NCBI GenBank assembly: GCA_030295235.1
Contig: AP026155.1
Span: 124,001 to 188,000 of the forward strand
From: Fistulifera solaris
Lineage: Eukaryota; Bacillariophyta; Bacillariophyceae; Naviculales; Stauroneidaceae
Length of the DNA stretch: 64,000 nt
Reading direction: 5' to 3'
Shown: piece by piece, positions 46,904 to 61,517 of the stretch
How the letters are laid out: each line of letters opens with the position of its first letter
Position numbering within the stretch: position 1 is the stretch's first letter
Notes under the pieces: generated by a model
Told to the model about the DNA's origin: nothing
Databases searched by the model: none
What the model saw: only the letters and a program-made list of their open reading frames with translations
Position numbers and translations under genes: made by a program

Positions 46904-48561
46904 TTATTTAAAGCAATACGCTGCCGCTTCTTTTAGCTGTTGTAGACTTGATTCTTCATTTTCATTCAGTACAGTAAACTCAAAGACGCCACTGGAAATA
47001 CCATATTCGACTTCTTTCACGACTTCACGAATTTTATTGCGAATGGTGCTTTCCCGGGTTTCCTCTTCGTCAATTACAATGTCCCCGGAATCAATGGCGT
47101 CCCCCAAACGTTTCTCAAATTCATCCACACTGTTCAAACCGACCCACACTCCAATGATACGAAGACCCGGAATTCGTGTCAGTTTCTTGGATAAGTCGAC
47201 GCTGGCATCCACAATGACGACCGATTGGTTCTGCGCCGCGGCAGCCGCAGAAGAAAGAAGTCCTTCTTTCGTGATGCCGTACTTTCCTTCCGTCAAGAGC
47301 TCACCTCGTTGTGCCAGTCGCTCGTAGGTGGCGGGGTCGGACACCGGATCGATTTGGCGAGGTTCCACAAAACGACCTTCGCCTTCGGCTAAAAGACGCT
47401 TCACTAAATCGCTGCGACCCGTAGCTTGCGGACCCGATACCAAAAGAATGGTGGGCAAGCCAACATCGGTACCGGAGGTAGTTTCTACAGCGCCCGCGGA
47501 GGATTGCGCCAACTGAAGCGCCATTCCGACACTTCCGGGTAAAATGAGTCCTGGATCATTCTTATTGTTGGTAGTGTCCGCGAAGGCTTCCTGCAGCTGA
47601 ACAGCGAAGAGTGGTAAACGGTACGTCAAGAAACCGAGTATCGCAGCACCAAACTGTTCGGCCGTTACGTAATCAAAAGTTCCTTTCCTGCGACAGGACT
47701 CGCTTCTCCGCGACTTTGATTGTACAAGGCCACTCCGACCAACACAATCAACGGCATCGCAAATCGCAAATTCGATATGCCTTTGCCCATTTTAGCTTCG
47801 GGTGAAGCAATCGTGTCCGTCTTGATCGATAGCAAGAAGAGATACACCAAACTACTGAGCGCACCTGCACAATAAATGGCCGCATCTTCCGTGCCTCGGA
47901 CGAAATCGACGACCACGGTGCCGGCAGCACCGGTCAGGGCGACGAATTTGAATATCTTGTTTTTGATGGATCCGTACATTTCCAAATCCTGGGCCACCAC
48001 ATCGGTGTTAACATTCCGGACAGGTCCCGTATAATCGTCCAGGTCGTAGGTTTCGGCACGCACTTTGGGCATTCGATTAGGGCCCATGGGCAATTTGAAG
48101 GCATTTTCACTTTGCACAAAACTGGCCAGAATAGGACTCACGGCATCAATGTCGCGCAGTACCCGTTTTCCTCTCCGTTGTTGGGACGAGTACTCGGCAA
48201 AGTATCCGTCTCCGACGTCTTCGAGCGGTGTCACTTCAATCAACCATCCAGTTTTCCCGCCAGGTTGAATGAAGGAAATCTTTCCCACCAAGGCTTGTCC
48301 ATCGGCACGACCACCATCGAGATCGTAATAACGTACAATATCTCCAATCGCTGGATGTAATGACTTCTTAACTGTTGTTGCTTTACTGCCTTCTTCCCGC
48401 TGCGGAACGTACGCAGCGACAGTGACGCGTTGCCGTCGAAACGATTCCCAGTGAGTGGTGACGGATGTTCTTGTCAACAGTGGCGACAGGGTAAACGCCA
48501 GGCACGATGGCGCCCATAACAACAAATAATATAGGATCCAGTAGTGTCGTATAGCTGTCAT
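46904..48561 (-). CDS. Plastid-targeted membrane protein fused to a guanylate-kinase-like P-loop domain (one frameshift)
   Basis: The N-terminus MTAIRHYWILYYLLLWAPSC ending CLAF fits a diatom bipartite plastid signal, with Phe at the cleavage site. Then come an SH3-like barrel (AIGDIVRYYDLDGGRADGQA), a soluble stretch and two or three membrane segments (IFKFVALTGAAGTVVVDFV, AGALSSLVYLFLLSI, LRFAMPLIVLVGVALY). After a break at A run 47685-47688 (one base gives GKELFDYVTAEQFG) the C-terminal 230 residues follow. That part has a P-loop-like VSGPQATGRSDLVKRLL, then VEPRQIDPVSDPATYERL and a helical end, as in guanylate kinase/MAGUK folds. The Lys of a normal GxxGxGKS loop is Arg here (TGRSD), so catalysis is doubtful. 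I chose ATG 48561 over 48735 because the signal starts there. Confidence 0.65.
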
Positions 48562-48731
48562 GATTTTTCGGCAGGAGTCGCAAAGAAGTGCGCAAAATAA
48601 GAGCGGATGTTGATCAAATAAATAATAATCAATGAAATGAGTAAGAGATGTCAATGTCAACGAAACCCGAGCGGAGTAATTGAGGCGCTGTGCTGCATTA
48701 GGGTTCGATGTACAAACAATCCTGGACAAAC

Positions 48732-48790
48732 TCATGACTAAAATTCAGTCTTGGTGAAAAACGGACAACACTTTGGACCGAAGTAAACTC
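48732..48790 (+). repeat. Dispersed palindromic element, copy 5
   Basis: Reads TCATGACTAAAATTCAGTCT then TGG, followed by TGAAAAACGGACAACACTTT then GGAC. It lies about 170 bp upstream of the plastid protein start codon. Confidence 0.7.
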
Positions 48791-54391: not shown

Positions 54392-57250
54392 ATGACGAAG
54401 AAAGAGGTAGTTCAAGAGAAAATGGCAGAGCAAAGAAAGGGGGAAGAAGCCTCTGCAGAAGATGAAAGCAAGGCAAATGAGAGCAGTACGAAACCTCCTC
54501 CATGGGATGTGGCGACAGTGGACGCATTATTTCCGCAAGCCGCCGCTCTTTCTGTAGCGGTGTGGTTACTTCTTGTCGTTCTTGTTACCACACAAACACC
54601 ACTCGAATATCACGAAATACTTCGAAACGAAGAACGAGTCGCTACATTTCTGTCTGCCGTCGTCATGTTTGTGACGCTTCTGGCGTTGCTGATGCCCTCT
54701 TTGCTATTCAAAAGTCCTACCCCAGCGGTATTGTGATTGCCGGTACCGCCGTCTGCTTTGTCGCCATGTGCACCAATCTACTCATGTGTCTTCGTCCCAC
54801 GGTGGTCGTTGTCGATCCGGTCACGAAAGCGCGCGTCTTTCTCCTCCGTTGGTGCGAATGGATACCACTTGGTGGTCTCATGACGTTCCTCTCCGAAGCG
54901 GTCTATGTGAGTGCCGAGACGGGAGGCATGGAGGGAGCTCTTTCTCGACTCTGTGTCAAACTCTGTCGATTGTCAATGGTATGATCTTTCCCCTCTGCAA
55001 CGATGTGGTGGTCTGGCGGTGCGTGTTTGTTTTTAGCTTCGTGACCTATACCGACATATTCCGTCGTGTATATATAAAACGAAAGGCCTATTTACAAAGC
55101 ATCCAAAAGAGTGAAGGCGTTCAGGATGAAAAACTACAAGATCAAGTCAAATTCGCGTATTTCCTTCTTTTGGCTTGCAGTATTGTGTGGTCGGTGCTGG
55201 TGGTTCTGTATTGTATCAATGTATGGATCCACACTCTGCCGGACTTGGAGACAAAATGGTATTACCGGGAGTCTCTCGCCATGATCGTAGATACGTCCTT
55301 TGACGTGCTGGCCAAGTCTGTCTACATGAAGTTAATTACCGATATTCATCAAGCGCTCTTCGACGAAACATACCAATGGAGAAAGCAGCTCACGGAAATG
55401 CGGCAACTGATCAGTGTCATGTGGGATTCGAGTTCCGATATCATTCTCATTTCAATTCGAACCAATCAAGCTTTATCGGCCATCTTATCACCGGCTTTCT
55501 TTCCGCTGGTAGGCGCCAAGCTGCCAGAATCGTTGCATAGAGGGGGCTCTGAAGTGGCGTTAATGTGTTCCGTCGACAGTTCGGGGCAAATTAAATGCGA
55601 CTATGTAGAGACAATTGATATACTCGTGGATCCACAACGCAATCATAAAATATTGCAGTGTGCCGAAAATCGAGAATCGGTATTGAAAGGGGCGAAAGAG
55701 CTTTTGAAATTGACTTGGAATTGCACAGTCGCGAAAGGAGTGTCAACTCCGTTGTTGGAGCATCCGCTTGACGGAGAAGACGGTATTATTCGACAATCGG
55801 AGATAAAAATATCATACTATTCTGAATCTGCCCGAGTAGGAGTCATTCGGGATGTTTCTGAACGGTATCTTCGGCTGGAAGCGGAACGAAAGGCGCACAT
55901 GGAAATGGTGGCGCGACAAAAAGACGCTCAAGCTGTCAATCGCTTCACCCGGCATGAAGTCAAGAATGGCTTATTAGAGGGGATTGAGCTATGTGATAGC
56001 CTTCGTTCGGCTGTGGAAGATCTTGTTGCTCAGGCCTCTATGGCTCCAACTCCGTCCAACTCAAGCCAGAGGAAAAGAAATGGCAGGGCTGGAAAAGAGT
56101 CCGATCGCGAAGTTGGTAGTCGCGCGGTCAGTGCTCTGACACGACGTTTTATCGAGGATCTTGATTACAATTTGCATAGCGTCTTGGACTGTGTTCTCGC
56201 CGAGGCAATGGCGAGAGACGTGGTCCATGGTGATTACAAGCCGAGACATGAAAGGATTGATGTAAAGGGAGTGCTTTCACATCCTGGACTTGGGATTGGA
56301 TTTACCGACAAATTCCCGATTGAAGTTTTGGGCGGGCCATTACCGTACGTAAGCTTGGATGCCCAACTGCTACGGCACATTCACCGAAATGCATTGTCAA
56401 ATGCATGCAAGTATGGCAAGGCAGGAGGGAAGGTTGTGACACAGTTATCTTTTGATTCACTTAGTAGGACGTTCACCATCAACGTGATTAACGAGCCGGG
56501 AGAGATGCATTCGAAGCTAGTAAGCATGGGAGAATCAGCAAAGGCGGCCGTCTTTCAACAAGGTGCTAGATTACACTCTCACTTGAACCTTGAAACTGGA
56601 CATATTTCTTCTGGCGATGGCGCATGGATCATGCAAAAATGTGCCAAAACACTCGACGGAGAATGCCAGATTGAATTTTTGGAAGACAAGACGGTATTTA
56701 CATTCTCTTGTCCGGCCCAGCCGCTCGTAGTAACGGATTGGAGCAAAACACAAGACTTTGAGGTTCCAACCAATACTTGGGGGTTGCGATTGATGATTCC
56801 AAAATTCAAAGACGGCTGCTGTCACGTATCTTCTTGTTCGCTGGCGTTCAGGAATCTAAAACTGTTGTTTTGGGGGAATCGTACTCGGAAGTAGCAGAAT
56901 TCAAAGAGAAGGTCCTTTCACTTGTTAAGGAATATCCCGACGATAGAATATTGATTCTGGTCGATGAAAATTTGGACTTTGGAAAAAGCAACGAAACGCC
57001 TCACGTCATGTCTGGATCGTTGTTGATGCAAGAAATCCTAAAATCAATGTCGCCAACCGAGGAGCAACATGTTCTTGCTCTAGTTCGGTCGGCAAACGAC
57101 TCGGCAGAAGAAACGGAACTATACTGCGAACGGACACATGGTTTCTTCCCCAAGGGTCCCTTACAGCGCGATCGAGTACGAGAAATTCTTGCTCCCCTGT
57201 GGGCCGATCGATTCATGAGAACCGACCTACAAGCAGCATCTTTATCGTAG
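54392..57250 (+). CDS. Candidate rhodopsin-histidine kinase-receiver protein (three frameshifts)
   Basis: After a charged N-terminus there are about eight hydrophobic segments: AAALSVAVWLLLVVLVT, VVMFVTLLALLMPSLLF, GIVIAGTAVCFVAMCTNLLM, a segment with LLRWCEWIPLGGLMTFLSEA, TLSIVNGMIFPL, VVVWRCVFVFSFVTY, LLACSIVWSVLVVLYCINVW and MIVDTSFDVLAKSVYMKLI. R153-W-C-E156-W matches helix C of type 1 rhodopsins (R-Y-x-D-W). D305-V-L-A-K309 matches helix G (D-x-x-x-K, retinal lysine). Then follow a PAS-like region, the H-box FTRHEVKNGLLEG (His522), the N-box HIHRNALSNACKYGKAGG and GDGAWIMQKCA. A receiver comes last, with AIDDSKIQRRLL and phosphoacceptor-like Asp859 in LVDENLDFG. Breaks at A run 54710-54713, T run 54941-54943 and G run 56779-56783 are each cured by one base, giving 953 residues. 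The kinase identity is firm; the opsin identity is inference from motifs. Confidence 0.75.
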
Positions 57251-59369: not shown

Positions 59370-61517
59370 ATGCCGTCCTTTGAATTGAAATGTATCAACA
59401 CCATTCGGGCTCTGTCCGCGGATCAGGCGGAAACGGCTGCGGCTGGACATCCCGGCGCACCCATGGGCTGTGCCCCCATTGCTTATCTGCTTTGGAGTGA
59501 GGTCATGAAGTATTCGTCGAAAGATCCGACTTGGATGAACCGAGATCGCTTCGTGTTGAGCAATGGTCATGCCTGTGCATTGCAATACTCGATGCTGCAT
59601 TTGACGGGTTACGATCTGTCGATTGAGGATCTGAAGCATTTTCGAAGTATCGATTCCAAGACTCCGGGACATCCCGAATCCTTTCAGACACCTGGTGAGT
59701 ATTGTGGCTGTGACCTGGCATTTGCAGTCTTGTCATCCAGTCATGTACGACACCTTACACGCTGTATTTTGTCGTTTTAATAAATATGCTAGGCGTCGAG
59801 CTTACGACTGGACCGTTGGGCCAAGGAATATCCAATGCTGTCGGTCTAGCCATCGCTGAGAGACACTTGGCCGCTCACTTTAACGAACCAGACATGCCTA
59901 TTTTTGATCATTATACCTATGTTCTCTGCGGGGACGGATGTCTACAGGAAGGAATTAGTGGAGAATCGGGATCATTGGCGGGTCACCTGGGTCTGGGAAA
60001 GTTAATTGTTTTGTACGACGACAACCAGATCACCATTGACGGAGATACAGCTCTCAGTTTCACGGAAGATGTACTGAAACGGTACGAAGCCTATGGATGG
60101 CACACACAAACAGTTATAGATATTGAAGAAACGGTTGGGAGTCTCCGAAAAGCTATTGAAACGGCGAGGAGTGTGACGGATAAGCCATCCATTATAAAAA
60201 TCAAGACGATCATTGGTTATGGAAGTCCGGGTAAGCAGGGCACGAAAGGAGTCCATGGTGCTCCGCTCGGAGAAGATGAGCTACGAAAGGCCAAGGAGTT
60301 TTATGAACTTCCTCCAGACGAGATGTTTTACATCCCGGACGATGTCCAGAAATTTTTCAAAGATGTCGCTGCGAAAGGAGAAACGAAGCGTAAAGACTGG
60401 GAGGACATGTTCGCGCAGTATTCTCACAAATTTCCTGACAAAGCCTCTGAGATTTCGCGCCGCATGGCTCGAAAGCTTCCTGAAGGTTTGTTCGATAAGC
60501 TTCCGACCTTCAAAGCTGGAGAGGATAAGGACATTGCGACTCGAAAACACAGCCACCAGATATTGGGTGCCATTGCGCCAAACATGCCAGAATTGATAGG
60601 TGGCTCAGCGGATTTGACGCCGTCCAATTTGACCGATTATGAAGATGTTATCGACTTTCAAAAGGACACCCCAGAAGGTCGCTACATTCGTTTTGGTGTA
60701 CGTGAGCACGCCATGGTGGCCATCTCGAACGGAATATTTGCACATGGTGGTCTGCGTCCGTATTGTGCGACATTCCTAAATTTTGCCGGCTATTGCGCAG
60801 GAGCTATCCGTTTGTCGGCACTTTCCAAATTCGGCGTAATTTTCGTCATGACCCACGACTCGATCGGTCTTGGCGAAGATGGACCAACACATCAACCGGT
60901 TGAAACGCTGGAAATGTTGCGTGCTACACCCAATCTGAATGTCTACCGACCGGGAGATGGGAACGAGACATCGGCAGCATATAAGAGCGCACTGGAGCAC
61001 ATTCATACCCCAACGGTGATTGCTCTATCTCGGTCGACGGTCAAGGCAATTCCAAACAGCTCAATTGAAAAAAGCTTGCAAAGGAGCTTACGTTGCCCAA
61101 GATGTCGATAACCCTTCCCTCATTATCATTGCCACCGGATCGGAGGTGGGACCATCACTTGAAGCTGCTTCTCATCTATCTGCCGAAGGTGTGCCCACGC
61201 GCGTCGTTTCGATGCCTTGTCAAGAGGTGTTTTTGGCTCAACCAGAATCCTACCAACGCGAGGTTCTTCCTGGAAATATTCCTACTCTAGCTGTTGAAGC
61301 TTCGGCCGTGCATGGTTGGCATCGCTTTTCTCATTCTTCCGTTAGTATAAGTACCTTCGGTATGAGCGGTCCAGGAGAGAAAGTCATGAAATTGTACGGT
61401 TATTCCGCAGAAAACATAGCAGAGAAAGGCAAGAAGCTCGATCATTTTTACAAGGATAATCCCGTTCCCTCTTTGCACAACCATCCAGACCCGTTCATCG
61501 TTAATGTACGCGAGTAA
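59370..61517 (+). CDS. TKT: Transketolase (2 exons, one frameshift)
   Basis: Thiamine-diphosphate enzyme moving two-carbon units between sugar phosphates in the pentose phosphate/Calvin pathways. Motifs in order: [56 protein letters not shown] (ThDP/Mg site, here G-D-G), [21 protein letters not shown], then [14 protein letters not shown] and [18 protein letters not shown] in the second half. The intron 59695-59792 (98 bp, phase 1) falls inside QTPGVELT. The A run 61068-61073 has one base too many; removing it restores [14 protein letters not shown]. About 682 residues, the usual length. No signal or transit peptide before [13 protein letters not shown], so a cytosolic isoform is likely unless an upstream exon is missed. 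Confidence 0.93.

Follow-up and report, generated by a model that had tools for sequence, protein, structure and literature searches.

A probable, deeply divergent histidine-kinase rhodopsin encoded in the genome of the diatom Fistulifera solaris

In the excerpted account of PMC7644710, the rhodopsin phosphodiesterase (Rh-PDE) of S. rosetta bears its retinal on K296, D292 serves as the counter-ion and E164 stands protonated alongside; its additional helix, TM0, packs on TM2 and TM3, and a helix after TM7 runs into the linker. Green-algal histidine-kinase rhodopsins, such as HKR1 of Chlamydomonas and Ot-HKR, are described as running from opsin to histidine kinase to response regulator, and light inhibits histidine-kinase rhodopsins (excerpts of PMC12558739). 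Diatoms possess a type-1 rhodopsin in FcR1, which is of the xanthorhodopsin type and works as a proton pump (excerpts of PMC10627834). Among the matches listed in the open-licence literature on diatom and stramenopile rhodopsins or kinases, themselves partial texts, we found no described diatom enzyme rhodopsin.

In this study, we compared these systems with a gene in a 64,000-nucleotide stretch of F. solaris (assembly GCA_030295235.1, contig AP026155.1, positions 124,001 to 188,000), referred to here as the window. Its product is probably an enzyme rhodopsin, deeply divergent and carrying a histidine kinase, with predicted retinal binding, and on paper its layout is that of an enzyme rhodopsin, with a TM0 and an enzyme domain in one chain. 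As in the excerpted description of Rh-PDE (PMC7644710), TM0 lies ahead of seven helices, Glu stands at the place of bacteriorhodopsin D85 (E164 in Rh-PDE) and Asp at that of D212 (D292), and four residues separate this acid from the Lys (D292-K296 there, D305-K309 here). The distance from the TM0 Trp to the helix-C Glu is 101 residues in Rh-PDE (W63-E164), against 101 in a paralog on C14 and 98 in the window copy. The helix leading from TM7 into the linker was seen in the crystal of Rh-PDE and is predicted here, and both chain ends lie inside there, as they would here from the loop charges. The two differ in their output, which is a phosphodiesterase in Rh-PDE and a kinase here, and in the Glu-to-Lys distance, which is 132 residues in Rh-PDE and longer here, at 153 (window copy) and 156 (C14 paralog) (excerpts of PMC7644710).

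By description only, the order opsin, histidine kinase, response regulator is shared with the green-algal proteins, some of which have a guanylyl cyclase, whereas none was seen here (excerpts of PMC12558739). The diatom family further differs from them in that its opsin part escapes the profile PF01036 and three paralogs end in a HALKG stretch. With FcR1 it would share the occurrence of a type-1 rhodopsin in a diatom; FcR1 is, in contrast, a proton pump (excerpts of PMC10627834).

The features of the gene are collected in Table 1. Translation from the ATG at 54392 to the stop at 57248-57250 gave 953 positions, with unknown residues at the breaks included, and the protein was read across three frames with three frame changes. 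It runs from the membrane helices through a PAS-sized linker and a histidine-kinase core to a receiver-like end.

Table 1. Features of the candidate enzyme-rhodopsin gene (window positions; residue numbers are those of the window copy; BR, bacteriorhodopsin).
Feature	Position	Strand	Basis
Whole gene: opsin-like 8-TM part, PAS-sized linker, histidine kinase core, receiver-like domain	54392..57250	+	translation, homoeolog alignment
TM0, residues 50-68, with W58	54539..54595	+	hydropathy; helix 2-20 of paralog model; W invariant in alignment A2
TM1 / helix A, residues 81-106	54632..54709	+	paralog model, hydropathy
Frame break 1, one base short relative to homoeolog	54710..54714	+	alignment with C38
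TM2 / helix B, residues 113-134	54727..54792	+	paralog model, hydropathy
B-C connection, predicted beta hairpin in C14 paralog	54793..54840	+	model strands 94-96 and 103-105, seen again in second model
TM3 / helix C, residues 151-175	54841..54915	+	paralog model, profile alignment
R153-W-C-E156-W, on BR R82-Y-A-D85-W86	54847..54861	+	sequence, hhalign
Frame break 2, one base short relative to homoeolog	54940..54947	+	alignment with C38
TM4 / helix D, G197 on BR G122	54948..54995	+	profile alignment
TM5 / helix E, residues 206-229, continuing as basic extension	55005..55076	+	paralog model, hydropathy
TM6 / helix F, residues 250-280, W267-S268	55137..55229	+	paralog model, profile alignment, hydropathy
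TM7 / helix G, residues 295-324	55272..55361	+	alignment to paralog helix; below hydropathy threshold in window copy
D305-V-L-A-K309, on BR D212...K216; candidate retinal lysine	55302..55316	+	sequence, hhalign
PAS-sized linker	55401..55859	+	position, size, predicted alpha/beta make-up of low-confidence paralog model
F-T-R-H522-E-V-K-N-G, presumed phosphoacceptor H-box	55944..55970	+	identical in 5/5 copies
HATPase_c	56358..56720	+	PF02518 E 1.3e-4, under cut-off
Frame break 3, one base short relative to homoeolog, in G run	56781..56785	+	alignment with C38
Receiver-like domain, D802-D803, D859, K922	56786..57232	+	motif in 5/5 copies, hhalign

We then aligned the window gene with its homoeolog on C38. 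Every frame change in the window copy fell where that copy lacks one base, and the homoeolog carried one extra base at another place. Across the gene's full length, 2587 of 2864 aligned bases agreed (90.3% DNA identity), and protein identity reached 93% across 581 residues from TM5 through the kinase. The dN/dS values were 0.026/0.340 in the part running from TM6 to the end of the kinase and 0.031/0.335 in TM2-3, a ratio of 0.08-0.09, indicating that the homoeolog pair is under purifying selection. Each break being a single-base indel relative to a homoeolog that is 90% identical and diverges at this ratio, we take them as probable assembly errors in a gene that works. Single-base inter-contig indels occur as well in the adjacent transketolase frame (59786-61108), at 60311 and 61022, which likewise points to assembly error.

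The translation and its numbering placed R153-W-C-E156-W, W267-S268 and D305-V-L-A-K309 exactly where the initial annotation had put them. Its count of about eight hydrophobic segments before the kinase held for seven of the eight by hydropathy: TM0, TM1, TM2, TM4, TM5 and TM6 were clear and TM3 was just at the threshold, whereas TM7 fell below it in the window copy. TM7 was also sub-threshold in the C38 homoeolog and rose above the threshold in the other three copies. Hydropathy and the paralog model agreed on the proposed extra N-terminal helix. Loop charges, read by eye, were basic between TM1 and TM2, very basic between TM5 and TM6 and acidic between TM0 and TM1, which is consistent with an N-in topology; the kinase would then lie on the cytosolic side. 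Acidic residues occupied both the 85 and the 212 places: the Glu expected at the counter-ion position was found as E156, aligned with D85 of bacteriorhodopsin, and the second acid was D305 (Glu in the C13 and C14 copies). The candidate retinal lysine lies in the middle of helix G in all five copies, with K309 aligned to K216 in a register that hinges on the helix-C motif. The distance from E156 to K309 is 153 residues against 131 for D85-K216, in line with the earlier estimate of about 20 more than in bacteriorhodopsin, and the profile alignment assigned the extra length mainly to the E-F and F-G connections, that is, to loops, as had been suggested. We rejected an ion pump: L167, eleven residues past E156 and presumably at the D96 place, offers no acid there.

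A search of the same genome identified five copies: the window copy (C39), its C38 homoeolog, a C14 copy and a tandem pair on C13. They form two subfamilies, and the membrane part of the C14 paralog was 27-28% identical to those of the window copy and the C38 homoeolog, the pair against which this figure was measured. The R, W, E and W of the helix-C motif, the helix-D G, the helix-F W and the helix-G K were kept in both subfamilies; 5/5 copies open TM3 with R-W-[AC]-E-W and retain the TM6 W and the TM7 K, and the residue four before this K was D in the C38/C39 pair and E in the C13 and C14 copies. In a six-frame translation of the window and four other stretches (191,986 residues), R[YW]x[DE]W occurred five times; four of these belonged to this family and the fifth lay in a short reading between stops, indicating that the motif is there by more than chance. 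The C14 copy and both C13 copies carried an additional C-terminal R-L-H-A-L-K-G stretch, which we take to be Hpt-like from its motif; in the C14 copy it gave no Pfam match.

No relatives were confirmed in viral or prokaryote contigs with the membrane profile, the kinase profile or the homoeolog's membrane part, in scans that start from two to six short peptides and that distant relatives can escape; PHROGs profiles gave no match to the family either. The family alignment thus consists of five copies from one genome. That the host is a diatom, as the initial annotation had it, was borne out by silicon transporters in the genome (E 3.5e-222).

To relate the membrane part to known rhodopsins, we searched it with PF01036, the Bac_rhodopsin HMM. 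The results showed no match for the membrane pieces of any of the five copies at a limit of E 10, in a search whose HMMER filters discard most matches above about 0.1; the controls in the same search, ChR2 and the actinobacterial rhodopsin L076, scored 3.5e-64 and 2.2e-51, so that the membership proposed for this profile was not borne out. No PF01036 gene was found in this genome, a weak null since 0 of 14 control genomes gave matches either. The family profile also retrieved no rhodopsin from the PDB sequences, and a custom rhodopsin HMM scored the five copies at -1.2 to 5.2 bits.

Next, four family rows (alignment A2, with C13a left out) were compared by hhalign with 38 type-1 rhodopsins, comprising five typed ones and 33 remaining from 80 fetched after removal of those more than 70% identical. 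One register joined the family to bacteriorhodopsin R82, D85, W86, G122, W182, D212 and K216, the landmarks shared with sensory rhodopsin II and channelrhodopsin-2. Hydropathy-preserving shuffles matched the score in 2/200 and 10/300 local runs and in 2/300 global runs, and the five identical anchors among 11 named were attained by 5/300 local and 0/300 global shuffles. When RWxEW was masked, 33/200 shuffles reached the score and the K register was lost, indicating that the helix-C motif carries the sequence-profile signal. Masking K267 of the profile left its column on K216 in local mode and lost the register in global mode. With the six residues F-E-V-A-S-K masked, the K column moved by four in local mode; with W226 masked, helix F moved by four and K remained on K216. 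In contrast to bacteriorhodopsin, sensory rhodopsin II and channelrhodopsin-2, the family does not conserve T89, P91 and P186, which are invariant across the five typed rhodopsins and are replaced by L, F/G and S/V, respectively; it has W for Y83, and its overall similarity to them is near background.

In the reverse direction, 462 of 953 sequences received a score from the family HMM, the best single match being ChR2 (9.5 bits, E 0.032). Rhodopsins filled ranks 1-6, unrelated background ORFs stood at ranks 7, 10, 11, 16 and 17, and the first reversed rhodopsin came at rank 28. Rhodopsins outscored their own reversed sequences (p = 7e-6), a p value that is not independent because the rhodopsins are mutually related and were fetched by the helix-C motif. 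The sequence tests mostly agree in direction, and none is decisive.

We then used AlphaFold, with 11 alignment rows, to predict the structure of the C14 paralog, which has an unbroken membrane part. The best model had a low-confidence pLDDT of 54.4 (the other four, 39.9 to 43.9) and showed TM0, seven helices and a two-strand B-C hairpin just ahead of helix C. In a Foldseek search of the PDB, the best 50 of 955 matches (E<=10) were all type-1 rhodopsins, nine matches reached E<=0.001, and ranks 1, 2, 3 and 5 were the S. rosetta rhodopsin phosphodiesterase, an 8-TM enzyme rhodopsin, at 13-15% identity in the Foldseek alignments. A second run on a longer C14 frame (pLDDT 43.7) placed type-1 rhodopsins at ranks 1-21 and in 44 of the best 50 of 857 matches; squid rhodopsin, WLS and GPCRs made up the remaining six, and no match reached E<=0.001. 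GPCRs are very common in the PDB, so the rhodopsins-first order is informative, though models of such low confidence call for care. The seven-helix opsin fold put forward by the initial annotation is thus predicted, with its TM0 and its rhodopsin matches, but for the C14 paralog only and from weak models.

The histidine-kinase core, as first annotated, was supported by the HATPase domain and by the H-box common to all copies: a C13 paralog scored 30.2 bits against PF02518, above the 26.4 cut-off, beside the weaker match of the window copy. The family was absent from a genome-wide PF02518 listing in which 38 of 76 candidates were scored. N-x-P-G-E stands at the usual place of the DxGxG box, and kinase activity is therefore not to be assumed. 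A MASE3_PAS_HK match (E 0.017) spanned just 34 residues of the kinase core. Between TM7 and the kinase, the second C14 model showed mixed helix and strand; no Pfam family, PAS included, was recognised in this region, and the linker may be called PAS-like from its position, size and predicted make-up only. For the receiver-like end, annotated earlier as a receiver, the D-D, D859 and K922 motif recurred in 5/5 copies, but no Pfam Response_reg match was obtained, and the end was absent from the 49 Response_reg matches in the genome. In hhalign against five typed receivers, 8/200 shuffles reached its score, a weak profile signal.

Taken together, we consider it fairly likely that the gene product is a divergent histidine-kinase enzyme rhodopsin, with retinal on K309, a light-controlled kinase and phosphotransfer. 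TM0, the fold of the paralog model, the conserved R/W/E/W-W-K residues and the kinase core argue for this reading, and the silence of PF01036 argues against it. Since that profile gave no match and retinal binding is a prediction, we do not class the protein as an accepted type-1 rhodopsin. A rival reading takes the protein for an 8-TM sensor histidine kinase from outside the opsins, MASE-like or not, which would respond to a chemical or to the state of the membrane, its motif likeness being convergence and its low-confidence model having drifted towards bacteriorhodopsin. We regard this as unlikely, though deserving weight: beyond the missing PF01036 match, the profile signal hangs on one five-residue motif, the models have low pLDDT, and DUF2208 matched TM0-TM1 of the C38 homoeolog at E 3e-5, with 24.2 bits against a cut-off of 24.3. 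The DUF2208 match was, however, weaker in two other searches and absent from the C14 paralog. The contrary outcome named by the initial annotation, clear homology to a MASE-type family, was looked for in Pfam/NCBIfam at a limit of E 10, and no MASE, 7TMR or other sensor family matched the membrane part; we rejected these families for want of a profile match. The mid-TM7 Lys, the D/E one turn before it and the TM3 Glu are moreover kept across both subfamilies, and type-1 rhodopsins rank above GPCRs among the matches listed in the structure searches.

The protein might instead descend from type-1 rhodopsins with the fold kept and light sensing lost or exchanged for another ligand, leaving a constitutive or chemical sensor. 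The replacement of T89, P91 and P186 and the unusually polar last helix of the window copy would suit such a history, which we nevertheless find improbable, as 5/5 copies retain the Lys, the acids at both positions and Trp in the places of W86 and W182, the homoeologs are under purifying selection, and once retinal was lost the Lys would presumably be free to change. Very improbable is a pseudogene whose function is moot. The three frame breaks of the window copy and the breaks in all four other copies speak for it; these breaks are single-base and lie at differing sites in the pair compared base by base, and we rejected a pseudogene on the dN/dS of that pair together with the indels in the transketolase frame.

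If the enzyme-rhodopsin reading is correct, K309 would carry retinal in Schiff-base linkage within TM0 plus a seven-helix type-1 rhodopsin fold, and E156 and D305 would be its acidic partners. The genome gave 13 matches to the RPE65 family, which makes a retinal supply plausible. Light would isomerise the retinal and move the last helices, TM7 and the one following; the long post-TM7 helix would relay this movement via the PAS-like linker to the kinase dimer and alter autophosphorylation of H522, the direction of the light effect being likewise presumptive. From H522 the phosphate would move to the receiver-like domain, at D859; in the paralogs the C-terminal HALKG (Hpt-like) stretch would probably receive it next. 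For the family as a whole, we incline, by a little, to a deeply divergent type-1 rhodopsin lineage missed by PF01036 and fused to an unusual histidine kinase: a diatom multigene family of light sensors with TM0, Glu at the primary counter-ion place, Asp or Glu at the second, and a phosphorelay.

These findings suggest that diatoms may own a light sensor missed by the standard rhodopsin search profile. If true, this would be a histidine-kinase rhodopsin in a lineage for which the literature searched describes no enzyme rhodopsin. Such a protein in diatoms would extend these sensors to a major marine photosynthetic lineage, give phosphorelay signalling in diatoms a membrane-bound light input, and demonstrate opsin divergence past the reach of the standard profile.

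The ATP-binding domain of the candidate enzyme rhodopsin carries N-x-P-G-E at the position where the DxGxG box is usual in such domains, and this replacement is kept in all five copies of the gene. A second subfamily of this kinase comprises two tandem copies on contig C13 and one on C14. At the position four residues N-terminal to the TM7 Lys, its members have Glu in place of Asp, and they end in HALKG at the C-terminus. In the membrane part, TM0-TM1 of the read-through protein of the homoeolog gave a DUF2208 match just below the cut-off (24.2 vs 24.3 bits), and no DUF2208 match was found in the C14 paralog.

Coordinates of the features described here
Feature	Location	Remarks
TM0-TM1 region matched by DUF2208 in the homoeolog (L002)	window 54539-54709	
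ATP-binding domain of main gene	window 56358-56720	with N-x-P-G-E
Transketolase	window 59786-61108	Transketolase_N, E 8.1e-95
Conventional histidine kinase + receiver	G000:C39:215684-216325	beyond window; strand opposite main gene
Second-subfamily kinases, tandem pair	G000:C13:926549-932716	L004, L006
Second-subfamily kinase, single	G000:C14:882168-884419	L003, L007
Additional C-terminal fragment of second-subfamily kinase	L003 3473-3766	C14, downstream of C14 copy

Approximately 34 kb downstream of the main gene lies a conventional histidine kinase with a receiver, recognised by the Pfam models for both domains and with a partner on C38. The protein encoded at window 47668-48735 (-) matched the CGL160 C-terminal domain at 34.1 bits (cut-off 34.2). 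Compared with the partner contig, the transketolase frame contained single-base indels at 60311 and 61022, and these differences provide a serviceable yardstick for assembly error.
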